Notes under the pieces: model-generated
Told to the model about the DNA's origin: nothing
What the model saw: the letters and a program-made list of their open reading frames with translations, nothing else
The model's database searches: none
Position numbers and translations under genes: made by a program
DNA from: Centroberyx gerrardi
Taxonomy: Eukaryota > Chordata > Actinopteri > Beryciformes > Berycidae
DNA length: 64,000 nucleotides
Direction of reading: 5' to 3'
Assembly: GCF_048128805.1 (NCBI RefSeq)
Contig: NC_136013.1
Coordinates: 4,822,602-4,886,601, forward strand
In this document: in pieces, positions 564 through 24,600 of the stretch
Layout of the letters: each line of letters opens with the position of its first letter
Position numbering within the stretch: the stretch's first letter is position 1

Positions 564-3500
564 GTATACTGTAGCGGGACAACCCACCGTCGATCGACAC
601 CCCACCCCCCCACCCCCACCCCCACCCCCCCGCACACTGTATTTCTGACAGTGGGTTTCCTGTAGAAGTAGAAAATAACCATTTCACTCCTGTTTTCAAG
701 CTAGTCCCCCTTCCTCCCTCCTTTCTAATATTGTATTATTAATGTGTGCAGCATGTGAATGGGTTGCGTAGTTTCGTTTTATCCAGTTATAATTCATGGT
801 TGTCTTGTCTGGAGGTTCAGTTTTCTTTTTATGTCTGTTTTGGGGGTGTTTTCTTCTTCTTCTTTCACATTTCCACTCACATGGCACAGATTGTACAGGC
901 TGACACCTGATCAATGGCATATACATAAATATTTCTTACGTTTTCTAACTAGTACATCTAATGCGCAAACCAGTTAAAATTTGAGATTTGTTAATTGGCA
1001 AGTACAATAAATATACAAGAATTTGTATATAGAGATATTATCAGCAGAGAAAAGGTTGATTGGGTGTTTTTTATGATTTGGATCCTTAGCTAATGGCGTT
1101 TTGATGGGACAGATGTCGTCAATCTGTGCTGCGTGAGTGACCGGGGCTTCATTTTTCCATGGATTAGTGTCTGTCTAATCTAATGCAACAGCTGGAAATC
1201 CCATTCCCTATCATGGCATGCTTTTTTGGACGAGGTCAATAACTTAACACCCTGGGTTCTTAAACTAAAATGGTCACAGGCCGGAGTCTTCTGAGTCCAC
1301 ATGACAAGAACAAATAATCCTCAGCATTTGTTTTAGCCTGCTTGGAGCACCAGATGGGTGGGGTTTGCCACGTGGGACAATGAGAGTCACAAAGTTTTGG
1401 CAATCACAGGAAAGAAGAGACTATTTGTTAATCCATTTGTTTCTGTGATTGACAGCTTACATGGCACTATCTGGATTGTCCTGATATAGTAAAACCCCAC
1501 CCATCAGGGGCTGTAAGGAGACGAAAACAAACCAATAATGATAACGAATAGTAAGGATTACTTTCTCTGAATATAGAGGTTAAAAATCAGACGACTGTAG
1601 TGTGAAGACTTTGACAAAAATATACTTCAACATGGGTTCAGGAGGGGCAGCTGGGCCGACGACCCGGGCACCTGAACAGCCTCAAAACTGAAAACATCCT
1701 GTTAGAATCTGATAAAATGCTAAATCCTCACATTTCTTTCTAGAACATTAAGAACCACTAACTTCCCCAGGCCTGGCAGCCATGTTGACTTCCTGATGTC
1801 TTTGCTCCAATTCGATTAAAGCAAAAGATAATAATAATAATTTGCAAATTCAAATTGAACCAGGTCTGGACAAGAGTAGCAGCATGATTTAGGTCTTGTC
1901 TCAGGATGAGAGGCTAAATTTCTCATTTGGGTCCTGTGCTCAAAAAGTTTAAGAACCTGCTGACTTAGACTGTACAGTAATAAAGTAATAAAGTAATAAA
2001 GCTTTATTATATGACCATCATGCTTTGATTATTAGGCCTATATAGGGATCTTCCAGCTCTGTGCCAACATCCCACCCAAAAATAAAAAGAAATGCCATAA
2101 GGGAACAAAGTTGATGTGGGAACTCGAGGTTCACATTTGTTCACATGACACTTCTTGCATCTCATAGTTCAATCAGAGTAACATAGTTTGTACTAATCAA
2201 CATGTTAATAATTATCCTGTAATTAATGTGTAAGTAATGTGATTCTCTGTCATAGTTTGTGTTTTGTATGCACTCTTAAGGAGGATTTGTCTTTTCAACA
2301 CATCTGTGTGTCTAGTTGGGGCAAAACATCTGTTACTTTTCAACACAGTATATTTTTTTTTAGCATATTTTGAGCTGAAAAGTGGCACCAGTGTAGATGG
2401 ATGTTTAACATGGATGTGTTGAAAATGCCCCGTCCCTTTAAAGAGTGCAGTTACAGTTTTCCAATGTCTGTGTGTGCATCATGTAACCTTTGTTACTAAG
2501 ATTTGTCACTGTTTGTCAGCTCATTTGCTTTCTCTAACTGTGCAGTCTAACCAGTGTTTACCTTGCAGGCAGACATCCAAAGCTAAAGCTAACTCTAAGT
2601 CTAAACAGAGCGGCTCTGGCAAAAGGTAAACTGAGGAGAAACAATTCAGCGGGTAAATTCATATGGGGAGAATGAACCGTCTGAAAAGAGACACACACAG
2701 TCACACACAGTCACACACACACACGCTGCTTCCACATGCCTCACAAATTCAGTAATTTCATCTGATGGAAACCTGCGCTGGATTAGACACAGAGTTATTT
2801 GTTTGCTGGGTTATTTTAGCCAAAAAGTAAAAGTACATATTTTATTGTTGTGCAGAATAGCCTGTGTGCATGTACCACACACATTACCCAAGCATTTTTG
2901 TTTGATTTCAAAGAACCATTTTGCTACAGGCTTTGAATAAATGTTTTCACAGATTGAATTAATTTCTAGATTTGTTTATTCTTCCACTTTATTGAACACA
3001 GATTTAGTGGCGATCCCCACTCCACTCCAGGTCATATGTTTGGCTTCTCAGATATAACAGTGAATATTTCTTATTGTCCAGCAGTACTGGTGACATTACT
3101 TTGATGTTTTTGCCAACTGAGACAATATCTGTGATATTCTGTGTGAACCTGAGTGACACTCAGATATTTTAACTAGCAACATGGATTGATGGGTGTGTGT
3201 TGTGTTGACCTGAAACAAACCCAAAACATTTTCAGAAGCAAGCAAACGTGTTCAGTTTTACTTTGTAGAGCAGAAGAATTGTGTATTCCTGGTTTCGTTC
3301 ATTCATTCATTCATTCATTCATTCATTCATTCATTCAATCGGTTATTCATTTGTTCATCCATTCATTCATGTATTCTTTCATTCGTCCACTGATTCATTC
3401 ATTCATTCAATCAGTTATTCATTTGTTCATCCATTCATTCATGTATTCTTTTATTTGTTCACTCATTCATTCATTCATTCATTCATTCATTCATTCTTTC

Positions 3501-6500
3501 ATTCATTCTTTCATTCGTTCATTCATTCTGAGGCAGGCCAATGAAAAATATAATTTTTATGTGCACTTTAAAAAAAACAGTTACATCTCAGCATACTGTC
3601 ATGCTTTTGATTTTCACTGTTTAAACACAAGTGAAGTATTCATTCATTCATTCAATCATTCATTCATTCATTTATTCATTCATTTGTTTATCCATTAATT
3701 CATGCATTCATTCATTCTGAGAAGGGCCAGTGAAAATATAATTCTTGTGTGCACTTTCACATCTCAGCATGCTGACGTGTTTTTGATTTTCACTGTATAA
3801 GTAAAACTGAAGTATTCATCCATTCAATACTCACTCGTTCATGACCTCCCCCGCCCCTGTCTCCGCCCTGCAGGCTGTATTTGGAGCGTCAGAAGAACCA
3901 CTTCCACCTGCACTCTGTGTCCTGTCTGGGCACGGAGGTTCACCTGGCCGCCTGTCCGCTGGAGTTCACCAAGCCCAACTCCACCTCGGCCTGCGCGGGC
4001 GGCATGCCGGCCGTGGTCAGCTGCATGCCTGGGCCGCAGTACACGCAGAACAGCGCCTTGAAGAAGAAAATGAAAACTTCGGTAAAGTATCTCTTAATTA
4101 CAGGGCGGCTGAATTAAGTCGTCCTCAAGGGCTGAATAGGAATTAGGGGTTTTTCTGCGCTTAGCTATTAGTGAGGAAAGTAACATTAACCCAGACTCCA
4201 CAGGCAATAATCCTCATTATCTTCATGCTAGATGCTTCACTTACTTCATAGTTGTATATGTTTCAAATAGGATTCGACCATTATATCGGTAAAGCGGTAT
4301 ATCGGGCCAGTAAATGTCAGGTATCAGCCAGTCATGTCGTCTACCACCGATACGCTGCAAAAACTGTCTGGATACAAGATAAAATAACTTAAGTTATTTT
4401 ATCTTGTATCCAGACTTATCAAGCTTATTTTAGGATTTTTTTTGTGAAATTATCGTACTGCACTTGCAGATAATGTTACCTATTTAAACAATTTTGACTT
4501 CTTTTTTCAGGATAATGTAACTTGTTTCAGGACATTTACTTGGTAAAAGTGAAATTGTCTTGGAGAAAGTTTCTTGTTTCAAGATTTTCTGATGTTTTCT
4601 TGAAAGAAGTCATATTGGCATGTATCAAGTGAGATTTATTGAAACCAGCAAGATTATCTGCCAGTGCAGTGAGATAATGAAATATGAAATATCATGAAAT
4701 AAGCTTGATAGGTCTGGAAACAAGTTAAAATCACTTGAGAACTTGTCATTTTTTGCAGTGTATGATGGAGGTTCCTCCCTGACCGCAGCTACACAAATAC
4801 AGTCTGGAAAACCTGCAATGGAATTTTATTTGCACAATTTACTCATTCATTTCATGTTCTTTGTAAATTAGTTCTTAATTTAAAGGCAGTAACGTATCCC
4901 AGAGTTTCCCCTAGCATCGAATAGGAGAAACTCTGGAGCTGCTAACCCAACTAGGTTTCAATGGAGAGTTTTAGTGTCCCATGATGGTCTAAAAGCTGTT
5001 TCAGAGGCTTTTCCACACTGACAAGAATAAAACTCTTGGGGAAACACTTAATATTTGTAATTTTGGCATGAAAATGGTCAAAATTTAAACTGATACTGAT
5101 TTTCACACAAAGGGTTAGGGATAGGATTGGTTGGTATTTAGCAGTCCAATAGACAAAGCACAGAAATGGCAGGCATCTCTATGTTCTCTTGTTCCACCCT
5201 TGGATTAAAAACGTGATGTTCTGCGTCTCTGTGTCGTCCAGAGCAACGTGAGGCTGAAGGGCGGAGCCAAGCTGGGCGAGGGCCGGGTGGAGGTGCTGAA
5301 GAACAGCGAGTGGGGGACGGTGTGCGACGACCGCTGGAGCCTGCAGTCGGCCAGCGTCGTCTGCAGGGAGCTGGGCTTCGGCAGCGCCAAGGAGGCTCTT
5401 ACCGGAGCCCGCATGGGACAAGGTCAGGAGAGTCCACTGTTCACTGTTCTGTCAAACACCTCAGGAATGACAACCTACTGAAAATACACTGTTTAACAAA
5501 GATATATTCGTTTTTTCCAACTATATCAGGAATTGAAAATTGTTATCTACTCAAACCCATCTCTGACATCCAAGCCAGGTTTATAATAATAATAATTAAA
5601 CTAATAATAAAACTACAACTACTCAATATGACTGAACCTGGGGAAAGTGTGTTTCTACTGTTAGATATCCGATAATAGCATCAGATGTTCACTTTGAGAC
5701 ATGATAAAGAACCACTAGGTGCAAAAACATCGTCTTTTTTGTGTATTGTTTCTGTTTAGGAGCATAATAAGGTGGATTCTGTGATTTTTCTTGTATGGAA
5801 TCCCTCTGAACCCAAACACCTGAGACAAGCCGCGCTCATAACTATCTTCAGACAGCGGTTCAGTCATCAGCTGTCCGCATGCTGCCTGTCTAATCTCTCA
5901 GGTCATCTCTGACAATCTGACCTCAATAAAGTCCACATTCCTGCAAGGATTCCTCATTTGGAGCCCGTTTTAAGAAGTAAAGGAATGCTGTGTGGAGAGA
6001 GAGAAAGAAAGAAAGAAAGAAAGAAACCCACCAAAATTTACAGAAAAATAAGGCATTTTTTGGACCCAGTTATTATTATTATTGAATAGACAGATTTTCA
6101 TGTTACATTACTCGGTCTAATACCACTTGCCATCACTTATCTATTAATTCATATTGGAGATTCATTTCATTTTATAATAGTGAGTGAAATGAAAAGGTGT
6201 CTAAACTGAGATTAGGTGTGTTTACCCTCCACTACATCTCTGATTATAAAATGGGAAAATGATTCTCTGGTATTGTTCTCCATTCATTAGTACATAGTTT
6301 TTCAGAGTATTTGTGATTCCTGAGTATCAGTGAGGCGTTTCTGAGAGCAGAGAGCCATCTGTGTTATTGAAGCTATAGGCTGTGGATCATTTCACTTGAA
6401 AATGGTGCAGTGTATTTAATAAGTTCAGCTTGTGCCTTAAAGAGCCGCCTGGCCTCCACATGAGTGACAGGTCATCTATTTTAAGATGAAAATGACTTTT

Positions 6501-7019: not shown

Positions 7020-10000
7020 AGTGGCTGTGCAGACATCTGCTTGTGAATGAATTATACCTGTATTAGGCTTGCTTTTAAACTTCTGACAACCGTATAGTCA
7101 TTTTTCAGAAACCTGTTTGAAAGTGTGTGTTTGTCTGCGTACATGCGTGTGTGTGTGTGTGTGTACATGTGTACAGCTGCATGTCTAGCCGTTAGAGAGG
7201 TTGTCCCGTCCCCAAAAGCTAGATTCGATCCCATGTGTCCTGCTTAAGTGTCCCAGAACAAGACACTGAATCTCGTCCTGTTCGCTGTAACTCACTCAGC
7301 TAAATGCCTAAAATGTGAAGTGTTTATGTTTGTGTGTGTGTTCCTCATTACTTATTCTCCCCAAGAACATAGAGGTGTGTACGGTATTTTGCCTCGAGAT
7401 CCCCGTCCGCGGAAAAACAAGCGGCCTTTTGAAGGGCAGTTCTCCGAAACGATGTCCGCCGTCGTGTTTGTACATTACGTTTCCGACCGCAGAGGAAGTG
7501 GGCCGGGCGGACTCATCACAGAATCTCTTTGAGGCGGCGGCGTGCCTGCTGTGCACGTAGAGGGATTTCAGACCGACCACCCCCGCTGCGGCGTTTTTAT
7601 ACATTTTCAGGCTCGGAAACATTCCCAGACGTCACCGAAGCTGGAAACGTACGTGTGCCGCTGAAGGAATTCCTTTCACGGGAATTGTATAATGCATCGT
7701 CCCGAGGTGCCGAGGTGCCGCGACTCCTAGTTATGGAGTGAGAGCAGAGTGAAATGTAAACCAGGGTGATGCTGACAAAGAGCATGCATGTTCAGTAAAC
7801 CTGCCTTGGATGAATAAAGCTTGAAAAATACACTATGTATTCGTTTCAAGAGGTACGAGTAATTTGAAAGGCATTCCTATACAAGATTGGATACATAACT
7901 ACCAGTTCTGTATATGAAAACAAGAGAAAATTTAACAAGAATCACACAAATATCACAGCCAAGTTCTATGCATCCAACACTAGACCAAGTGTGTATCTTG
8001 TGTATTTAGTCATAGTTAGTTTTCTTATCTTTAAAGTAATAATCTGTGACATTTTCATATAAATAAATGTCCTTTGCTACCCTCTATTGAGTGATATAAC
8101 ACAATAGTGATTAAATCTATATCCAGTTCATGAAAGCTTTTGTATTAGCGGTTCTAAACACCCGGAAGTGATGTGTTTTACATTTCTAGTTTGTTCGGAA
8201 CAAACAGAAGAAGAAGAACTGGGTAGTTAGCATGAGCAGCGATAGCCACCATGGCTGAACAGACAAAGAAAAGAGAAACTCAAACTGCATCAACTAGAAA
8301 ATCCAAGAAAAAAGACGTCACAGTCCCGCCCACACTGTTTGATTGACAGGTGATCTCTGGGAAGTGCAGTGCAGAAACACCACAGCAGTGATGGAGACAA
8401 AAAAAGGGTTTATGCATCTGGGTTTATGTGTCTCTCTTCTGTCCAGGAATGGGTCCGATCTACATGAACGAGGTGAAGTGCCTCGGTCAGGAGAAGTCCA
8501 TCTGGAACTGCCCCTTTAAAAACATCACGGCGGAGGACTGTCAGCACACGGAGGACGCCGCGGTCCGCTGCAACGTGCCGTACATGGGACTGGAGAACTC
8601 GGTCAGAGCTGAACCTGCTTACTCACATGTTACATTCATTTTAAAAGTGTGTTGACAGCTCCAGGAAAAGTTAGAGAGTCGATTTAATTGTTTTATACTG
8701 AATTTATTGCACTGATCTATATGTGAAAATAGGGCTGCATAGGTTTACTGCATCACCTTTGTTTTTGGTTTGTACTGATAACTGCACAACTGTAGCATAG
8801 GAAAGAACTTGTATTTATTGCATTACCCTCCATCTGTTCAGTTATTTTTTTGTTTACTGCTCTAACTTTCTTTGCTGGTTGTACAAAGATGTGAGATTTA
8901 GAGCTAACAAGTACAGTTTCACTGTGCAGAAATCTCACATCTTCACTCTCAACCAACATTTCTTCCAGACCAGACAATTGCTGCTGTCATGAAAAAAGAG
9001 CAACTGCAATCTCTGTGTTTTTATTTTCTCTATTTGAATAGAAAGTTTACATTGTTATGTATGTGTTGACTTTCATTCTTGGGCCATTGAAACCTGCTAA
9101 AACCCCACTGTATAGTTTGAAAAACACAGTGAGAAAATAAGCATTCTTTTTTATTTTCCTGAAAAACTCATTTTTTGCTGATATGTTTTTTTTATGACAA
9201 CAGCAATATGCCTTTAACAGACAGTATGCCTGGTTGTACAGTTTGTATTTTACCAGATCATACTCTTCCATGTTCCCTATAGATACACACAGAGAGGCCG
9301 GGCTAAGTGGGATAAAAACTCTAGCAAGATCCACTCCCTCTCCTGTTTATAGTTTCCAATCCAAGTCACATATTTTTAACTTGCCAGTGAATGAAATCTA
9401 AAAATCTGTATTTGATTAGCTTTTCATGTCGACTTTAAGATATTTGGCTGTGCAAAATCATAAGAATTAAAGACTTTGTAATGCTAACAGACATAAAGAC
9501 AGAGTTTTTACCCCACAAGTCCCTGCCTGGCCCTTGTGTATCTATGCTTTGCTTTGTGCCTCCTAACCCTTCTGCCCGACACAGATCCGGACCACGGGCG
9601 GACGCACTCGTTACGAGGGTCGTGTGGAGGTGATGGGCTCCGACTCTAACGGGACCCAGAGCTGGGGCCTGATCTGTGGAGAGGGCTGGGGCACCAAGGA
9701 GGCCATGGTGGTCTGCAGGCAGATGGGCCTGGGCTACGCTAACCACGGCCTGCAAGTAGGTCATTAACCCCACTAAGAGCAGAGCAGAGCCCTGACCAGG
9801 GGGATTGCCTTTTGCCGTATTTGACATATGCAAATATAATATACTGACATGTACACTCAGTGGCCGCTTTATTAGGTCAGCTAGCTAAAATGAAAATCCC
9901 AGGAGGTCGGCTGTGTCTGAGATGCCAGAACCAGCCCCTCTGGCACGAAAATCATGACACGGTCAGTGGCACTTCAGTTACACATCTTACCCATTTTAAC

Positions 10001-13000
10001 ATTTAGTTGAACAGTAACTGAACCTCTTGACCCTTTCTGTACGCTTTATTTAGATGTGACTCTGTCTGGAGGAGCTGTCTGCATAAACAGAGAGGTGTAC
10101 CTAATAAAGTGGCCACTGTGTGTATACAGATTTTTTTTTTTTTAAATACCAAACATACATGTGCATCTACGTTCAAATATATTCCAAAAATAATATGTGT
10201 TTGTATGTTTAAACATGAATATATTATTTTGATAAATATAATGAATATATTTACATTTACATGTTTTTTACTAATACTAAATTGTTTCTAGTATTGGTAA
10301 AACATTTAAATATATTCCTTAAATATATTTATCATGCTAATATACAGTATATTCCACAATGGTGTGTTTATTTTTGGATTATACTTGAACATGCATGCAT
10401 GTGTTCAATACATGACAGTATATTATAATTGTCATTTGGAGTAGAGGTTTGGTTTACATGGGAGGATCAGATACTGTTCTGGTCTGTTCCACATGGATAG
10501 ACCAGCCATACACCAAACCTCTAATAAAACTCAAAGCCATTCACCACCAGGCCAAGCGGTGACTTCATCTGGAAACCATGTTGACGTTCACCTCAGCTAC
10601 AGACTAACCCCACTGCTGCTTCAACAACAAAACTGAAAAACAGTAGAATCAGCCCAGACAGTTCAGAGACAGGACAGGAGGTGTGTGTCCCCCCCTCACT
10701 GACTTCCAGCAGGACATTTCTGCAGATCCGGATAGTGGGCGGCCGGACCACTTATGAGGGCCGGGTGCAGGTTCAGGTTGGGTCCAAGTGGGGCACAGTG
10801 TGCAGCGCAGGCTGGACCACAAAGGAAGCCATGGTGGTTTGCAGGCAGCTAGGGCTGGGCTACTCCATGCATGCCATCACTGTAAGTAGGACCAAAGATA
10901 TACATGAAGAGCTTTGTTCCAAAATTAGATATCCACCTTTGGAAAAAGTGACGCTCTATTCTTTAGTTTTGTGCTTTAAAATGATTTATAGCACAACATG
11001 AAAGCAAAATATTGTACTTTGTAAAGGAAAAATCCACAATAAAACCCTTTAACACTTAAAAAGAACAGCTATTGGTGATGTACTTTGCATTTGTGGGCCC
11101 ATTTTGTTGTTTGGTGTATTTTTCTTATTCCAGTGGATCACTTCGAGATATTTCCAGTTGTTGAAAGGCATTCTGGGAAACGTAGGAAATCACTGACTCA
11201 AATAGAAGTAGATGACTGAGGCAGGTTGAGGGAAAGTGGGTACATCAATAAATTACAGCACTTCATTATAAACTTATATTATAACTCTTAGAATGGATTG
11301 AACATCACAGATCGATGATATAAAACAGTGTAAGAGTATCTGAGTGTGGATTTTTCCTTTCAGGGGTACTTGATGACTTATGAGATATTCAGTGATGAAC
11401 TTCACTGATAATGTTAATGATGTTTTACAAAATAGATATATAGCATTTTGGAAATGAACTCTTCAAATATCTAAAGTAATGGAATACTTATCTTTAAGGA
11501 TTGCAAGAAACTGAATGCCAAACACTGATCATGATAGGAAATACATTCTGTGTAAGAAACATACAGTGTCCAGTGGTCAGCTGATCTATTTATACTAATT
11601 CTATGTGTAATTTTATAGTGGCCTCTCAATAGTCATCTAGCCAACAGGCAACAGGATTATTCAGTCGCCTTCTGTATGTGAACAAAGTTATTGCTCTCCA
11701 GTGATCATAAACTCTTCATCACATTGTGTCCTCAGCGAACAGCCAACATGAGTCATGAACATCTGTTTTTCAGGATGAAATCATCACATTTAACTCTTTT
11801 GTAGCTCCATTTGTGAACGATCATCTCCTGATAGATACATGTTCTGTGTTTCTTTGTGTGTCTGTGTGTTTTTCTTTTTCTAAGGAAACCTGGTACTGGG
11901 ACAGCAGCAACGTGACAGAGATGGTTATGAGCGGAGTGAAGTGCACAGGCAGCGAGATGTCTCTGAGCCAGTGCCAGCATCACAAAACCGTCAGCTGTCA
12001 GAAAGCAGCGGCAAAGTTCGCCGCTGGGGTCATCTGCTCCGAGAGTGAGTAACAACAACTGTAGTGAAGGACTCACACAAGTCATATAACATAAGACAGG
12101 TAGAGCAAGGCACTAATGCTGCCAGGATTAGGGTTGTAGAAGCAGAGCAGGGGTTTCTGGCACAACTTCACCTACTTCCAAGGTGCATGGAGAAGGGAAA
12201 AAGGTCTAAAAAGGTCAAAAGTCCAGCAACACTTAGTATATAGAACGTATGTAGTATATAGAACAACTTTATTGTTAGACCAACGCATTTCGGCTTGTGG
12301 CCTGACCCTGATGAAGCCCACAAGCCAGGATTAGAGTTCCCATTTCTTGGAATGGAAGAAAAGAGGAGAAAAAAAAAAGAAATACAAACTATTCTGAGAC
12401 AATGAATCTCCAAGGGCCTTATAAAAACATCTCACCCCAAGAGAGAGAGAGAAAATAAATAAATAACAAGATTAAACATGACCATATTAAGTTTATTAAC
12501 AATTTTAAGAGAGAAATCACTGAGTGAAACAACAGAGGGGCTTTTTTAAAAGTTGGATTTATTAACCACTGCTGGCTCAAATCAGACTTTTTGTCCCTAA
12601 TGTGGCTAAGAGATAACATTTCCCTTGCTGCAAAAACAAAGAAATATCAGATTCCTTGTGTTTTATATGTTTTTACAGCAACAAAAGGCAACTGATAATG
12701 TGATAACTTGTCAAAATGTAATAAAAATTCCCCTCTACGTGGGTCCAAAATGTAATAAAAACCTGTTAATAAATTGCTGGAAAATGTTCCAAGTAACACA
12801 TTTCACTGATGCTGTAATAATAATATTGACTAAGAATGTAATAACTCGAGTTATTATATTATCAATCAATATTATTGTTGCATCTTCAGTTAAAAATGTT
12901 ACACCCCTTATGAAATAATAATCACCAGTTCATATAATAATGTGCTGTTATTGCATTATGTGGCGATTTATTACATTGTTTGATGACATTTTAGAACCAT

Positions 13001-16000
13001 TTAGAGGGTAATTTTATACATTTTGACACATTACATTATCTGGCAGGTATTACATTATCGTTGTTACAGGTCTGATCTGTGTCACATAGGTGGAAAAATC
13101 TGATTTTGAGCCGTCAGTGTCGTGTAAATCCAGCTGATGCAAGTCATCCACCACCGCTAAAAGTTGATGTGGCTGTGCTATCCTTTCCATTACTGTTTAT
13201 AGTCAGTTGTATATAGTTTGTGTTCCTTTGTACTTGTTGCCCTTGTATGATTTGTCAGTATGCAATATAAAACTCTGTAGGTTGTCAATGTTTCTGCAGC
13301 AATCCCACAAAGACAAATTCCTGCACATTTACTGGACTTAAAGTGGTTCTGATTCTGATATATTACCACAGTGAGAATAGGAGAAGCATAATTCAGCATT
13401 TCTATATTCACTGTACGGCCACAAATAGATGACGACGATATGAAACCGATTTCTTGTGATTTAAGCGATCCTAATTGTGACTCTGCACAGCGGCCTCTGA
13501 CCTGGTCCTGAACGCCCCGCTGGTCCAGCAGACGGTTTACATCGAGGACCGCCCTCTGCACATGCTCTACTGCGCCGCCGAGGAGGACTGCCTGTCCAAA
13601 TCTGCTGCCAAGGCCAACTGGCCCTACGGACACCGGCGCCTGCTCCGCTTCTCCTCCCAGATCCATAACATCGGCCGGTCTGACTTCAGACCCAAGGCTG
13701 GGAGGCACTCCTGGGTCTGGCACGCCTGCCATGGGTAAGGGGCAAAATATAATACTAACATGGGGAGGGGAGGGATGTCTTGCCATCATTAGGAGGCAAG
13801 ACTTTTAATTTTTTACCATAGTTTTTAACACAGTTTCAGGAGGAGACTAAACTGATTCAACTTTAATCAGCTGAACTCCTTCACCCTGGTTTTAGCAGAT
13901 TGAGTTTTAGTAATACAAACATTCCTGGGAAGCAGAGCTGCTCTGGAGGCAGAAATAATGTCATTGATTGAGTCTGAGAAATCAAATGTTTGTGCGAACT
14001 AAAACTCCAATTTGCCTGATTGTAATGCACATGTGGTAGGAACTGTACCATCATGCCAAAGTTTAAAAATAAAGTTTATTGATCCCTGAAGGGAAATTGG
14101 GTCGTTGTTGCAAAAAACAATAGAGTATAGATGAAAATACAATAAATAATAAATATTTAAAGATTAAAGATACATGTTCATCATCCACACTGAAGAAGGC
14201 ACTAGCCAAAACATTTCTGAATGATGTTTCTTCTGCATTTATAAATAAATTAAAAATTAAAAATAGCATACTGAGAACTCAAAAGGTTTGGGAAAACCTA
14301 CTGCTTTTTGAGTGCAAACCATCTTTTTTCTACTGAAGATCATTCAAAATACAGAAAAACTGCTGCTATGATCACTATTGACAGATTTACACATTTACAG
14401 TCCAGCATGAGACTATATATTCTGCAGGGTGTGCGAATCTGCATCACTGGCTATTCACTCATCTGCCATTTATACCTTCCCCACGTCTCATTATCTAGTA
14501 TCAACTCTATTTAATGTATAAGCTGCTACTTTCCTGTCTTCCTTCATTCTGGACATCTCTCACATCCCGACACGACCCCAATCTCCTCCCTCAAAGTTCT
14601 GTCCAGCAGATCTCCTCCCATCCATTTTTACCCTCTGAGGCAGTTGATAAAGAAGCAGTTTCAAACTAGTGGGAAGAGAACTGGCAAGTTTAACCTCCTG
14701 CGTCATTCTTTAGCCTCTCAGACAGCTCAGCGATGATAGGAGAGGAGAAATATGTGTAACAGCTGTTCTGGAAATTGCATCAGTTAGTTTTGGAATTAAA
14801 TAAATGAGTATCTGGAGGATGAGATTTAAAAGCCTGCAGTGGATATGAGTCTGCTGAGTGTTTAGCCGCTGTAAAGTTATGACAGCACATTCATTTGAAG
14901 AGTTATATTCCAAAACACTACATATCCATTTTGAAAAATAAAAAAACAACATTTTCTGAAATTCATCATTCAATATCTCTAAAATATAGAGGATCCACTC
15001 TGCAAAAGTATTACCTTACCTTCTATCATCTTCTCAAAATGTACCTTTGTGTACTTTAAGTAACTTGTTTTGTGCTCTCGGTCATCTTATAAGAGTAGAT
15101 ATCACTTTCAAATGACGGATTATCTAATTATCTAATGAAGCTCTTTGTGGTTCATTATGAGTTGTTCCCTTGTGTTTTACAGCCACTACCACAGCATGGA
15201 TATTTTCACCCACTACGACCTGATGAACGCCAACGGCAGCAAAGTGGCCGAGGGACACAAAGCCAGTTTCTGCCTGGAGGACACAGACTGCCAAGAGGGT
15301 GAGTCTGACGTGCTGCTGTGGCCTTTCAGATTGTGGGTTTGTTTTCTTCTGTTTGGAGCACCAGATGGGTGGAGTTTGACACGTAGCACAGTGCGATGAG
15401 CGCCAGAAAGTTTGGATAATCACAGGAGTATTTGAAACGCAATTTTAGTGTTAATTTAATGTTTTTTTGTGATTCCCAACTTACCTGACACTATCTGAGT
15501 TGTCCTGACATAGTGAACTCCACCTATCTGGAACGCCAAGCAGATTAAATCAAACATTACAAATGACATAGGTAAAGGTTCAAGGATTGCTTCTCTGGGT
15601 GTTATGCTGAATCGATACTCTTTGGCTATCAGATTACAATGTGGGCCAAAAGGTGGAGGTCAGTTGCCTCAAAAAATGACATTTTTTTTCTCAGGTGGTC
15701 TTGGTGGCTCAGTTGGCTAAGGTCCATATTATGTACTCACATTGTCCTGGGTTGAATGAATGAATTTATTTGACAATTTAATAATTTGAATCTGCCCTGG
15801 GACGTTTGTAGCATGTTCTCCCTCTGTTTCATCCTTTCTGTCTCTCCATTGTAAACAGTCCAGTAAAGCAAAAAAAACAAATCAAACAGTTGAAATTCAG
15901 GTGTTAAAAGTTATCTGCAAGTATTACTTTACATCTGCATATTCAGAAATGTACTAGTTTTTGGTTGTTTTTTAAGTTGTTGTATTCTAAATACAGGATA

Positions 16001-17231
16001 TAGCATTATCTATGTAGACTCATTCATGCAGTACTAAATCTATCTTTCATCTGTTCCCCAGGAGTGTCTAAGCGGTATGAGTGCGCCAACTTCGGTGACC
16101 AAGGCATCACCGTGGGCTGCTGGGATTTGTACCGTCACGACATCGACTGCCAGTGGATCGACATCACGGACGTCAAGCCTGGAAACTACATTCTGCAGGT
16201 GAGCAGCAGCACGGCACCAACACCGCCAGGGACGGAGAGGAAAACAACAACAAACACAAACTGCATGGGTGAAACAGAGAAACACCCAAGGGCCTATAAA
16301 AACATCTCACTTTTCCCTATTGTTGCCCAGTGGGTCGGGGTTTGACACTAGGCTTGGGCGATATATGATATTATCACCATTTTTATTTTATTTCTTCTAA
16401 ATTACATCAAATTTCTTGCCACCCACTGGGAGTCACACACACCCATACTGACCCATACTAAAAGTCTTGTGCTAATATAAGGCACTTTGTGAAATTTAAT
16501 TATTTTTAGCTTCTCAGATATGTATGATTTCATGTCACTTGCCCATCGGCAGGAAACAAAAACATTGTGCCGAAAGACTGGAAATTGCAGCAGATAGTGT
16601 GTGTGGAATTGGCCACTGGTACCTTAAGTGCAAATAAAATGAAGTGCTTGTTTGTCTCGTAAGGCTGGATTTATACAAACATTAAAAAAAAACAGATTAT
16701 TAACTATCTAACCCAGGTCTAACATTTAAACTGCTGGTTAAACATGGAAAAATCCATCACTGGATCACTGAGTAATGCATGTGTGTCGAGGGCTTATTCA
16801 CTTCCTGTTGGGTTAAAAATCTGCTGTCACGTTTTTTTAACCGTCTGTGATCATTCATCCTGTTATAGAAACCAATTCTTGTGTGTGTCTCACTCTTCAG
16901 ATTGTGATAAATCCAAATTACGAAGTGGCCGAGAGCGACTTCACCAATAACGCCATGAAATGCAACTGCAAATACGACGGTCATCGTATCTGGCTCCATA
17001 ACTGCCACATCGGTAAGCAGTCAGAAAACAGTAAAAAGTACCGGATTGTATTCTCAGTTTCGCCATTCACATCATCTAGTTGTTTTGTTTACTGCTTTAT
17101 TCATTGTTTTTAATATACGATTACTTACTGGGACTCAATTGTTGCTTTTCCCTCCAGGCGATGCCTTCAGTGAGGAGGCGGAGAGGAGGTTTGAGAAATA
17201 CCCCGGACAGCTGAATAACCAGATTTCTTAA
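498..17231 (+). CDS. loxl3: Lysyl oxidase homolog 3 (3' part, multi-exon)
   Basis: Secreted copper- and LTQ-dependent amine oxidase that oxidises peptidyl lysine in collagen and elastin for cross-linking. Coding exons I can place: 498-563, 2569-2625, 3874-4081, 5242-5422, 8447-8601, 9585-9755 or 10726-10881, 11885-12044, 13491-13734, 15183-15298, 16062-16198, 16901-17012 and 17158-17231 (stop TAA 17229-17231). Phases join without a break, giving about 560 codons here. In order: end of SRCR2, SRCR3 (starts [16 protein letters not shown]), SRCR4, then the catalytic domain with the copper motif [14 protein letters not shown], the LTQ lysine in [12 protein letters not shown] and the LTQ tyrosine in [14 protein letters not shown]. 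The C-terminal residues [18 protein letters not shown] match LOXL3 and not LOXL2 (GGSFSEETEKKF) or LOXL4. NITAEDC in SRCR3 and YANHGLQETWYWDS in SRCR4 are also LOXL3-like. Signal peptide, SRCR1 and early SRCR2 lie left of the window. Whether this is the a or b fish paralogue is not decidable here. Confidence 0.93.
1348..1512. mobile_element. Foldback element, family F1 copy 1
   Basis: Begins CACCAGATGGGTGGGGTTTG and ends with the inverse (AAACCCCACCCATC), about 160 bp. Internal AATCACAGG and GTGATTGACAGC also occur in copies at 15358-15535 and 33795-33970. It looks like a non-autonomous inverted-repeat DNA element. No coding capacity. Confidence 0.65.
2275..2435. repeat. Dispersed repeat fragment (family F5)
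   Basis: The stretch CACATCTGTGTGTCTAGTTG with GGGGCAAAACATCTGTTACTT and ATGTGTTGAAAATGCC recurs inverted at 54110-54240 (TTTTGCCCCAAACTAGACACA). A shared dispersed element, type unknown. Confidence 0.5.
2569..2625 (+). CDS. loxl3: Candidate basic cassette exon B of loxl3
   Basis: 57-bp open segment flanked by ccttgcag and gtaaac. In the frame dictated by the next exon it reads [18 protein letters not shown] followed by a split Arg codon (AG/G) that continues into [15 protein letters not shown]. Phase 2-2 and a length divisible by three make it skippable. Remembered human LOXL3 runs AAFYRLLAQRQQHSF across this junction with no insert, so this exon adds a lysine/serine-rich loop inside SRCR2. 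Splice sites are good; expression is unknown. Confidence 0.6.
3296..3717. repeat. ATTC tetranucleotide repeat, interrupted
   Basis: Long imperfect (ATTC)n array at 3296-3530 with a second block at 3640-3717, separated by unique sequence. A similar unit containing GCACTTT...ACATCTCAGCAT follows each block (3560-3600 and 3755-3775), so a larger segment seems to have been duplicated. Open frames of Ile-His-Ser repeats across it are artefacts of the microsatellite. Confidence 0.9.
3874..4081 (+). CDS. loxl3: loxl3 exon, second half of SRCR2 and linker
   Basis: 208 bp, acceptor ctgcag, donor gtaaag. It encodes [19 protein letters not shown], a CP-containing stretch, [17 protein letters not shown] and the lysine-rich linker KKKMKTS. 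The cysteines of HSVSC, AACPL, SACAGG and VVSC are the SRCR2 C-terminal disulfide set. An N-linked sequon (NST) is present. The exon follows an ATTC-repeat tract and ends in phase 0. Confidence 0.9.
4353..4760. mobile_element. 408-bp foldback MITE with TA target duplication
   Basis: Ends are inverted repeats: CGCTGCAAAAAC at the left, TTTTTTGCAGTG at the right. Similarity between the two arms continues inward for nearly 200 bp (for example TATCAAGCTTATTT and its inverse). TA occurs on both sides (4351-4352 and 4761-4762). The paralogous repeat near 44155 has the single TA (GATATGATGG), which is an empty site and proves the insertion and its 2-bp duplication. TA duplication fits a Tc1/mariner-type mobiliser. 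No ORF. Confidence 0.8.
4366..4415. repeat. Perfect 50-bp palindrome
   Basis: The 25-base arm GTCTGGATACAAGATAAAAT plus AACTT is followed without spacer by its exact reverse complement, centre between 4390 and 4391. It lies at the outer end of the MITE at 4353-4760. Such a spacerless inverted repeat is prone to cruciform formation and assembly or replication errors. Confidence 0.95.
5242..5422 (+). CDS. loxl3: loxl3 exon, first half of SRCR3
   Basis: 181 bp from cag/AGC to CAAG/gtcagg. It encodes [18 protein letters not shown], then WGTVCDDRW and [14 protein letters not shown] and ends in ARMGQG. These are standard SRCR landmarks and close to vertebrate LOXL3. The split Gly codon (G/GA) joins 8447. 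Confidence 0.93.
6791..7014. repeat. Facing (AC)n and (GT)n microsatellites
   Basis: (AC)n at 6791-6827 and (GT)n at 6963-7014, about 135 bases apart in loxl3 intron sequence. They are complementary and could pair as a long inverted repeat. Confidence 0.95.
7180..7320 (+). mobile_element. SINE-like fragment
   Basis: Contains GCCGTTAGAGAGGTTGTCCC, a box-B-like GATTCGATCC, and ends with the tail CAGCTAAATGCCTAAAATG, which is shared with the SINEs near 20990, 32490, 38610, 55385 and 59185. Likely a tRNA-derived SINE. Confidence 0.5.
7375..7740. other. GC/CpG-rich island inside loxl3 intron
   Basis: CpG-dense block (CCTCGAGATCCCCGTCCGCG, CGAGGTGCCGAGGTGCCGCG) unlike the AT-rich introns around it, open in several frames on both strands. 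None of the translations resembles a known protein. It could be an internal CpG island, alternative promoter, enhancer or a repeat piece. Confidence 0.5.
8029..8398 (+). repeat. Dispersed repeat F2 copy 1
   Basis: About 370 bp, directly upstream of a loxl3 exon. Same orientation and high similarity as copies at 23296-23740 and 36617-37020. Contains GCGATAGCCACCATGGCTGA (Kozak-perfect ATG) and TGTTTGATTGACAGGTGATC. In this copy the ATG opens a 31-codon frame ([20 protein letters not shown] then ...TLFD). Confidence 0.85.
8447..8601 (+). CDS. loxl3: loxl3 exon, second half of SRCR3
   Basis: 155 bp, acceptor gtccag, donor gtcaga. It encodes [30 protein letters not shown] and [18 protein letters not shown] is a sequon conserved in LOXL3. 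It ends in phase 0, so either SRCR4 first-half exon (9585 or 10726) can follow directly. Confidence 0.93.
9585..9755 (+). CDS. loxl3: loxl3 SRCR4 first-half exon, copy 1 (canonical)
   Basis: 171 bp (57 codons), phase 0-0, acceptor gacacag, donor gtaggt. It starts [16 protein letters not shown], continues [19 protein letters not shown] and ends LGYANHGLQ. The ending fits the following exon (ETWYWDS) exactly as in vertebrate LOXL3. It carries an N-glycosylation sequon (SDSNGTQS) that copy 2 lacks. Both SRCR cysteines expected for this half-domain are present. Confidence 0.92.
9851..10116. mobile_element. Inverted-repeat DNA element (CAGTGGCCRCTTTATTAGG type)
   Basis: Left end TACACTCAGTGGCCGCTTTA with TTAGG and right end CCTAATAAAGTGGCCACTGTGTGTA are inverted repeats of about 25-28 bp. 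Around 265 bp, no coding capacity. A familiar, widely dispersed fish MITE. It sits in the intron between the two alternative SRCR4 exons. Confidence 0.8.
10726..10881 (+). CDS. loxl3: loxl3 SRCR4 first-half exon, copy 2 (duplicate, probably mutually exclusive)
   Basis: 156 bp (52 codons), phase 0-0, acceptor ttctgcag, donor gtaagt (better than copy 1's gtaggt). It starts [16 protein letters not shown], continues [19 protein letters not shown] and ends LGYSMHAIT. It is clearly a paralogue of the exon at 9585, five codons shorter in the loop before WG, with both cysteines kept and no stop. Using both exons together would give two tandem SRCR half-domains and is structurally unlikely, so one-or-the-other splicing is inferred. 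Confidence 0.82.
10915..11480 (+). repeat. Dispersed repeat F3 copy 1 (internally deleted)
   Basis: Matches 50155-51105 in order: AAAATGATT..., GGAAAAATCCAC, GTGTATTTTTCTTATT, GAGATATTTCCAGT, then GTTGAAAGGCATTCTGG and GGCAGGTTGAGGGAAAGTGG. About 430 bases present in the 50 kb copy are missing between GATATTTCCAGT and TTGTTGAAAGG. Inverted copy at 42785-43335; end fragments near 6540-6640 and 14900-15000. Confidence 0.7.
11885..12044 (+). CDS. loxl3: loxl3 exon, second half of SRCR4
   Basis: 160 bp, acceptor ttctaag, donor gtgagt. It encodes [33 protein letters not shown] and AGVICSE. The NVT sequon corresponds to the NIT of human LOXL3. It is shared by whichever first-half exon is used. It ends in phase 1 (A), continued by CG at 13491 to give Thr. 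Confidence 0.93.
12045..13490. other. loxl3 intron with two element remnants
   Basis: 12230-12330 has the dispersed-repeat signature TTATTGTTAGACCAACGCATTTCGG...CCTGATGAAG. 12690-13070 has scattered inverted TGTAATAAAA/TTTTATTACA-like blocks around the palindrome TAATAACTCGAGTTATTATA, suggesting a decayed foldback element. No exon. Confidence 0.5.
13491..17231 (+). CDS. loxl3: loxl3 catalytic lysyl-oxidase domain exons
   Basis: Five exons (13491-13734, 15183-15298, 16062-16198, 16901-17012, 17158-17231) code the amine oxidase domain. Seen directly: [36 protein letters not shown], the histidine-rich copper motif split across two exons (WVWHACHG, then HYHSMD), the LTQ lysine (EGHKASF), the LTQ tyrosine ([10 protein letters not shown]), the cytokine-receptor-like stretch [18 protein letters not shown] and the C-terminus ending in NNQIS. 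All residues needed for catalysis that I can recognise are present, so the enzyme should be active. Confidence 0.93.
13905..14000. repeat. Fragment of foldback element F4
   Basis: TTTTAGTAATACAAACATTC with GCAGAGCTGCTCTGGAGGCAG and AAATAATGTCATTGATTGAG matches the terminal arms of the element at 41570-42125. Confidence 0.55.
15358..15535. mobile_element. Foldback element, family F1 copy 2
   Basis: GCACCAGATGGGTGGAGTTTG at the left and GTGAACTCCACCTATCTGG at the right are inverted ends, with CCTGACACTATCTGAGTTGTCCTGACATAG inside in blocks shared with 1348-1512. Confidence 0.7.
15690..15885 (+). mobile_element. tRNA-derived SINE (diverged)
   Basis: Box A-like TGGCTCAGTTGGCTAAGG, box B-like CTGGGTTGAATGAA, then CCTCTGTTTCATCCTTTCTG and a tail GTAAACAGTCCAGTAAAGC with A-rich end. 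Same family as the SINE at 33213-33453. Confidence 0.65.
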
Positions 17232-21630: not shown

Positions 21631-24600
21631 TCACTCCAGCACCGTCTGCCTGACCACTCTGCCTTCTCGGTCGATGGCAAAGTTGTAATTCTTTGGATTG
21701 TCCAGAGCCTCTTCGATACGCTGATCCAAGTTCTCCAAGGTGATGAAGTTCTTGGCTTCCTCCTGTAACATGTGGAAAGTAGACGGTTAAAGTTGCGCCA
21801 AAAGAAAAAAACGTCAAAGTGAGCCCAAGATCTGATTTGTGATCCAACCAATAACTTAGCACTTTGACGTGCAGTTATTGAGCAACACAACCAGGAGGGG
21901 AATTTATTTGCTCTACACACCACAGTGGTAGCTGAATTTCAAAATTTCACTGCTCCCTTTTATCAGCTGTGTTTCACTACAACAGATCTTCCATAGACTT
22001 CAAAAACACACGAAAAGTAGCTTATCAGTCACCAGCCAAACTTTACCTGCACTTTGGCTGAAATGATTTCCCACCATGAAAACAACTTTCAGCTTCCTTC
22101 ACCAGTTTCAACTTTTACAGTTTCTTATAGTTTTTTACAGTTTCAACTTAAAAAACCTCTGTCCTTTCCACATTTGCACTTGATTTCTATATTCTCCTGA
22201 CTGGATTTGGAATCTCTAAGTGCTTCTTAAAGGGGCAGTAAGTCAGATTTTTACTGTCCCGTTGCACAAAATGATCATAATACATCAGCCGGGGTTTGAT
22301 AGGGTTGTTGATCAATACCAATGACTTGGCGATTATTTCATCAGCTTTTCAGCTCGAACTCTGTTTTGGAACAAAAACTCCAATAAAGGACGGTGTTACG
22401 AGCGAGCAACATCACAACACATTTCAGCTGTGAAGGCTAAAAAGCCTCGTTCTCAAGCCAAAAAAGCAAATGACAAAGCCATTTGATCATTCCAGTATTT
22501 AGCATGGTGAAATATTACCTCTTCACTAAATGTTTCTGCTGGATCTCTGCTCTAATTAGCTAGCTTACTGCTCTCTATTGTGAAAAATTGACTTTATTGT
22601 GTCAGTTACAGACCGCCGTCTCTCAAGGGAACAGCAGAGAGGGGGTTGGCTTGTTTGTACACTGTATTCCATCATTTTGTTTTGTGATTGGCTGTGGATT
22701 AGTTAGATTTATGAAGGTTTGTTCTTTGTAAAGTCCTTTGAGACATGCTTTTATGTTGAAGGGGTCTAGAAAGAAACCTGATTTGACTTGACTATCAGTT
22801 TTGCTGCAGTTCCCCCTGGTCACCAATAGAGGTCGATAAAGATCATAGATAAGTGTGATAGTGAGTTACTGTCCCACAGAAGTCTCCTTCCAGTTTTGGG
22901 AAAAGACCACACAGGCAGGAAGTAAACACAAAGCTGTTAAACATCATACCTGCAGCTGCAAAATCTCCCTCTCTTTTTCTTTGATCAGTTCTTGCATTGC
23001 TTGCTCTCGTTGAACGACCGCTTCTTTCTTCTTCAGCTCAGCCTCTTCCATTTCTTTCTGGACCCTCACTTGTCTAAAAAACACAGAGGAGAGCTGAGTA
23101 ACATCTGACATCATCATCAGATACAGAACCAGGAGCAATCAGGATACTGCTGACAAAGAGAAAGTAGAATACATAAATAACACGTGTTCATCCCAAAGCC
23201 CATATCTTAGAATAGTGATAGTGATTGTGTTTTAAATTTGAATTTGTTTACAACCTCTTATTGCTTCATGAAGAACTTTGTGAGAACTTGTTTTGTTTGA
23301 AGTAATAATCTGTTACATTTTTATTAAAATAAATGTGTGTTTTGCTGCTATCGATTCTCAACCTATACCCAGTTCATGAAAGCTTTTACATTTGCTGTTT
23401 TAAACACCCGGTATCTGGTAGGTCTTCCTGGGGAAAAATCCTCTGGAGCACAGAAAGTGATGTGTTTTATATTTCCAGCAGCGACGACAGCGGTTTGTTT
23501 GGAATAAACAGAAGAAGAACTGGGTAGTGAGCATGAGCAGCGATAGCCACCATGGCTGAATAGACAAAGAAAAGAGCAGCATCTGCAGAAACTCAAACTG
23601 CATCAAACAGAAAATCGAAGGAAAAAGACGTCACAGTCCCGCCCACACTGTTTGATTGACAGGTGATCTCTGGGAAGTGCAGTGCAGAAACACCACAGCA
23701 ATGAGCGCTGAGCACCAAGGATGTCACCAAAATAATAATAATAAAAAAAAGAAGATTTGACTTTCTCCTCACCTGAGTGTGAGCAGGCGCAGGTTCTCCT
23801 GCTGGTTCCAGGCCATGAGGGAGCGATGCTCCTCCTCCTCCTGCCTGGCTCGCTCCTCGGCCAGCGAGCCCGTCTCCTCCTCGTACCTCTTCCTCAGCAT
23901 CTCCTCCTTGAACTCCAGACTGAGAGACACAGAGAAGAGGGCCGGGTTAGAGTAGTGGTCAATTCAATCAATTTAATCAATTCAAAATCTAAAAGAAATG
24001 ACAATTCTTTGCTGAAGAAACAGTGCTCACTCTCAATTATTTATGACATTTTTTATTAAATCATATTTGAGTGGCAGTTAGGCTTCCACTGAGGCCTTTT
24101 TGCAAGACAGTTTCTTTAAAAACTTCAGCCAGTGATGGTCGTCCATCTATTGGCATTTCTCAAGCTGTCTGACAAAGCACCGGCCTTTTCTAAAGGCTGC
24201 AGAATTGAATTCCTTATTAAGAGAGATCTTAGCAGAATTTAATTGATTAGAAGAAAGAAAAGGGCTGGAAGGAAGGCTGGCATGAAGGAAAGAAGGAAGC
24301 AACTCAAACTTTGCATGAAAGGTCAGGGAGCTGATTGGGACAACTCTAAAATTGGGAAATAATAGGTTAAAAAAACAGGAAAATTCATCATAAATGTGAG
24401 GGAGTTCTGCACCTCAAAACAGTGAAATCATAGAGAACCCAGAAAAATAAAACATCTGTGCAGCCTGAAATATTGAAATATTTTACTGGGCAGCTCCAAG
24501 GTGGGATTGACATTCACTCCCTCTCTCCAGCCTGATTCCAACAGGTGTTGTGCCAAAATTTGTATGCCTTAAAAATGTGTGTCCCTTGGCAGTGTGTTGT

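Follow-up and report, generated by a model that had tools for sequence, protein, structure and literature searches.

The two SRCR4 exons of the loxl3 locus

The window analysed here is a stretch of 64,000 nucleotides from the 779-Mb genome of the fish Centroberyx gerrardi (C17:4822602-4886601). Its first 17 kb hold much of a lysyl oxidase gene of the SRCR type on the plus strand; exons that match SRCR1 and the beginning half of SRCR2 are found outside the window, on its upstream side. The second half of SRCR3 is encoded by a constant exon at 8447-8601 (plus strand), which ends in phase 0 with a complete codon (..MGLENS). The second half of SRCR4 is encoded by a constant exon at 11885-12043 (plus strand), which starts in phase 0 with a complete codon (ETWYW..). 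Between the two lie two exons for the first half of SRCR4, both on the plus strand: copy 1 at 9585-9755 (171 nt, 57 codons, donor CAA/GTAGGT) and copy 2 at 10726-10881 (156 nt, 52 codons, donor ACT/GTAAGT). The introns before, between and after the copies measure 983, 970 and 1003 nt. Each copy is preceded by AG, followed by GT, and open in phase 0. Since the exon to 8601 ends, and the exon from 11885 starts, with a complete codon, either copy fits alone. A first-pass annotation had placed both exons at exactly these coordinates and in this phase, with exchangeable ends, two cysteines kept in each copy and an NGT sequon in copy 1 that is absent from copy 2; all of this holds, and translation confirms the cysteines and the absence of stops. 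The lysyl oxidase catalytic exons follow in the same gene at 13493-17228 (plus strand); they are open, collinear with human LOXL2 (5ZE3) and were matched at 13493-13735, 15184-15300, 16064-16198, 16904-17011 and 17160-17228.

The gene encodes a lysyl oxidase catalytic domain preceded by SRCR domains. When joined, its SRCR3, SRCR4 (copy 1) and catalytic exons match human LOXL2 (5ZE3) from end to end (E 5.8e-219, query 2-448/448). It is the single loxl3-like gene of the genome and stands apart from the four relatives there, two LOXL2-like and two LOXL4-like (C8, C5, C15, C3). The name LOXL3 and the LOXL4 assignment of the relatives are provisional and lean on human sequences. With copy 1 as query, the fish's own genome gave six places (E up to 1e-7, all 142 candidates scored); with the second half of SRCR4 it gave five (E up to 1e-5, all 16 scored). 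The six first-half exons are spread over five LOXL genes, and only this gene has two. Loosening the genome search, with copy 2 as query, brought up 136 places in the 150 scored of 195 candidates, the LOXL genes among them. A scan of IMG/VR found no relative: 11 stretches fitted the pattern, none of which was confirmed.

The similarity of the two copies is far beyond chance: the alignment has 101 identical bases among 156 and 32 identical residues among 52, an ungapped DNA block of 50 nt reaches 74% identity and one of 75 nt 76%, and tblastn between the copies gives E-values of 1.5e-18 and 1.8e-18 (five-gene set). The copies are adjacent, homologous, equal in phase and free of stops, as mutually exclusive tandem-duplicated exons are. 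An origin of copy 2 from the SRCR3 exon was rejected, as copy 2 is 60% identical to copy 1 and 47-48% identical to the SRCR3 of the same gene. An assembly artefact is unlikely given 55 differences in 156 bases. Together with the shared second half, either copy completes an SRCR domain (PF00530: 75.2 bits with copy 1 and 83.0 bits with copy 2, cut-off 26.1).

Age and preservation of the second copy

The proportion of differing silent sites (pS) between the copies is 0.56, comparable to that between LOXL3 and LOXL2 (0.53-0.61) and higher than the 0.27 within the LOXL2-like pair and the 0.40 within the LOXL4-like pair. Protein identity is 0.62 between the copies, 0.52-0.62 between the copies and the other genes, 0.95 within the LOXL2-like pair and 0.86 within the LOXL4-like pair. 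Provided that both gene pairs date from the genome duplication of teleosts, the exon was probably duplicated before that event. The order of ages is a rough one, because silent sites are near saturation (pS between LOXL2-like and LOXL4-like exons is only 0.42-0.51); the codon branch lengths of the first fit were saturated and were not used as dates. The topology that pairs both copies was preferred over the two alternatives by 1.4-2.2 log units, and by 4.1 when the loop columns were left out (log-likelihood differences, with no formal test). Since the copies group together, the duplication most likely arose on the LOXL3 line.

Copy 1 and copy 2 are about equally far from the LOXL2-like and LOXL4-like exons of the same genome, and copy 2 shares the motif VCS with both of these. 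Human LOXL3 shares LICG and YANHGLQ with copy 1, and it is on the human sequence that the provisional description of copy 1 as the LOXL3-canonical version rests. This pattern would date the duplication to before fishes and tetrapods diverged, and serves as a lead rather than as a test.

The preservation of the copies was studied with a codon likelihood model of the six exons, run on three alignments (two gap placements and one with the loop removed) under three topologies. On the copy-2 branch omega was 0.012-0.018, and omega = 1 was rejected in nine of nine settings (twice the log-likelihood difference, 12.1-14.6). Copy 2 is not a long-dead duplicate; purifying selection has acted on it for long. 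Copy 1 is under purifying selection as well, in that a neutral copy-1 branch fitted 3.2 log units worse. When neutral drift was simulated with all 55 differences in one lineage, none of 10,000 runs (5,000 per copy) kept 32 identical residues. The GC content at third codon positions (GC3) of copy 2 is 0.75, within the 0.75-0.90 of eight other LOXL exons and exon-like, at a GC content of 0.34-0.38 in the surrounding introns. Unique changes in the two copies are near-equal against each of the four outgroup exons (5:4, 5:4, 4:6 and 4:5; chi2 0.11-0.40). Most likely, the duplicate is a working alternative exon of considerable age.

Predicted use of the two exons

Three hard-wired ways of excluding one exon are absent. 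At 970 nt, the intron that separates the copies exceeds what steric exclusion would allow, the splice sites, compared by their dinucleotides, are GT-AG for both copies and show no U2/U12 mismatch, and lengths of 171 and 156 nt, both multiples of three, produce no frameshift upon double inclusion. Such a device is not required and is absent in many clusters of mutually exclusive exons; in those of PMC5740500, steric interference accounts for 9%, U2/U12 incompatibility for 0.79% and lengths not divisible by three for 60%. In the absence of a hard-wired mechanism, exclusivity would need trans-acting regulation and protein folding. Of the first-pass interpretation, the exon duplication, the intact copies and the change of loop and sequon at the SRCR4 surface are supported, as is purifying selection on copy 2; expression of copy 2 and mutual exclusivity are predictions.

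We consider it the best explanation, with a probability of roughly 70%, that an old tandem duplication gave loxl3 two functional alternative exons for the first half of SRCR4, which are used singly. Each copy would be joined to the same constant exons on either side, and trans-acting splicing factors would decide between the copies, as no hard-wired exclusion was found. One-or-the-other use is favoured by folding arguments and by the general pattern of such exons. Double inclusion would leave an unpaired SRCR first half with two surplus cysteines, and skipping would leave an SRCR4 that lacks two of its cysteines.

Several observations weigh against this explanation, the first being that its evidence comes from one genome. 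Pairing among the three introns was rejected as an exclusion device, the longest complementary runs (11-12 nt) being no longer than in Markov shuffles (P 0.11, 0.29 and 0.40). Control of the RBFOX type was rejected too, as TGCATG is not above chance: two sites lie in the middle intron (P 0.066), where an AT-rich palindromic stretch ends, and one in copy 2, which makes three in the whole stretch searched against 1.64 expected (P 0.23). Double inclusion and double skipping both stay in frame, and the resulting proteins still match PF00530 in part, with 117 bits, split over two stretches, for the double-inclusion form, and with 30.8 bits, above the cut-off but over profile positions 54-100 only, for the skip form. 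These last points would suit a non-exclusive use of the exons, with copy 2 an independent cassette exon and some transcripts carrying both copies or neither, for which no steric, splice-dinucleotide or frameshift barrier exists. The cysteine and half-domain defects just described, a folding argument, speak against such use, and so does the case made in PMC5740500 for the single use of similar exons that lie within a folded domain; we regard non-exclusive use as improbable.

A different objection concerns the state of copy 2 itself, which might be a dead or dying duplicate that is not spliced and is intact because its function was lost recently. Two further AGs precede its acceptor, 13 and 16 nt upstream (10711-10712 and 10708-10709), the use of which leads to a stop after 14-15 codons; these decoys may point either to decay or to a regulatory weakness. 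Copy 2 also has fewer CpG than copy 1 (5 against 11). The selection test tolerates a short neutral terminal segment on the copy-2 branch, 0.2 neutral substitutions per codon costing 1.35 log units and 0.3 costing 2.07, so that a loss of function within the last ~0.2-0.3 neutral substitutions per codon is compatible with it. Moreover, when half of the differences were placed in a neutral copy 2, the observed identity was common (P 0.90-0.92) and 0.36-0.39 of the runs had no stop, so the drift simulation alone is not decisive. Against a dead copy stand the rejection of a wholly neutral branch in every setting, the exon-like GC3, and the lack of any stop, frameshift or lost splice dinucleotide, and we hold it to be unlikely. 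Finally, one copy might be constitutive in every tissue, with the other included only in traces and having no separate function. By an approximate donor matrix, the donors of copy 1 and copy 2 score alike (2.93 and 2.85 of 8.65; the donor of the upstream constant exon, TCG/GTCAGA, scores low at -0.93), which leaves the more ambiguous acceptor of copy 2 as the difference in keeping with such a scheme. That purifying selection has long acted on copy 2, and also on copy 1, speaks against it, and we give it very little credence.

The introns around the copies contain repeats. An element at 9852-10128 (no strand assigned), in the intron that separates the copies, has inverted ends at 9852-9877 and 10099-10124, and its part from ~9892 to 10128 recurs at 39 or more other places in the genome with 69-86% identity (39 of the 40 scored among 411 candidates). 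The segment 10162-10399 is AT-rich and matches its own reverse complement at ~68%. Further upstream, 8170-8395, in another loxl3 intron, looks by eye very similar to 23480-23705 downstream and is apparently a dispersed repeat; long ATTC-type tetranucleotide runs, also noted by eye, occupy 3295-3540 and 3630-3720 in the intron preceding the exon at 3872.

The SRCR4 surface and comparison with known systems

If two functional exons are used singly, inclusion of copy 1 would give an SRCR4 whose loop is longer and bears an N-glycan sequon where LOXL2 has N455. Copy 2 would give one with a loop five residues shorter and free of the sequon, and with the distinct end SMHAIT before the shared second half. 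The downstream exon 11885-12043 bears an NVT sequon that would be common to both predicted isoforms. N-glycans of LOXL2 are attached at Asn288, Asn455 and Asn644 (PMC8699698); PMC10380739 credits them with better stability and secretion. An N455Q crystal of LOXL2 is named in PMC6629125, and since that protein crystallised, loss of the glycan need not prevent folding. The Asn of the copy-1 NGT aligns with a Gln of human LOXL2 5ZE3 at the N455 position, which presumably is this mutation. By the human sequence, a GDD of LOXL3 falls within the duplicated exon. This GDD occupies residues 446-448 of human LOXL3, belongs to its fourth SRCR domain and is the predicted BMP-1 site (PMC6678131). A switch of this site between the copies was rejected, as neither fish copy has GDD (GEG and SAG instead).

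The LOXL2 models that fit best treat the connection of SRCR4 to the catalytic domain as rigid (PMC6629125), and in the crystal SRCR4 mediates the contact of two LOXL2 molecules (PMC8699698). The choice of copy would likely change glycosylation and surface beside the catalytic domain, and so affect stability, secretion, self-association or contact with substrates or partners rather than catalysis. A wider scenario, possible but in our opinion doubtful, is that an early bony vertebrate already had both exons, which fishes retained and mammals lost, and that the two exons switch the N455-type glycan and the SRCR4 surface by tissue. Fish LOXL3 would then represent a regulated cross-linking enzyme now missing from mammals.

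The closest likeness is with the tandem duplicated exon substitution events of vertebrates, in which two homologous exons, similar in length and equal in phase, likewise sit side by side within one folded domain, and most of which are ancient in human (PMC9741552). Unlike those, the loxl3 pair is known from genomic sequence and its alternation is predicted. The main text of PMC9741552 has no mention of LOXL, lysyl or SRCR, and that of PMC5740500 none of LOXL or lysyl. Among the matches listed in the open-access literature, titles and abstract beginnings gave no description of mutually exclusive exons in loxl3 or in SRCR domains; fish annotations may already list both exons. As a precedent PMC3927612 was set aside, as "mutually exclusive" there refers to kinds of homology and LOXL3 is merely listed. 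Human LOXL3 also has forms that differ in the SRCR region: sv1 lacks exons 1, 2, 3 and 5 and the first three SRCR domains, and sv2 lacks exons 4 and 5 (SRCR2) (PMC6678131). In neither of them, in contrast to the fish gene, is a homologous exon substituted for half of SRCR4. LOXL2 (5ZE3) offers the same domain with N455 at the position of the copy-1 sequon. Both fish LOXL2-like genes split SRCR4 over two exons in the same way, with one first-half exon and no loop-less version.

Zebrafish without Loxl3b show craniofacial defects (as cited in PMC6678131), and the SRCR domain functions of LOXL2-4 "remain to be determined" (PMC6629125). If both exons are used, fish loxl3 would provide a natural pair of SRCR4 domains, with and without the loop and sequon, on one enzyme, a ready-made experiment with which to probe the role of SRCR4 in secretion, self-association and substrate choice. 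The duplicated loxl3 exon belongs to a well-known kind and occurs in a gene where it would give a clean handle on the SRCR question.

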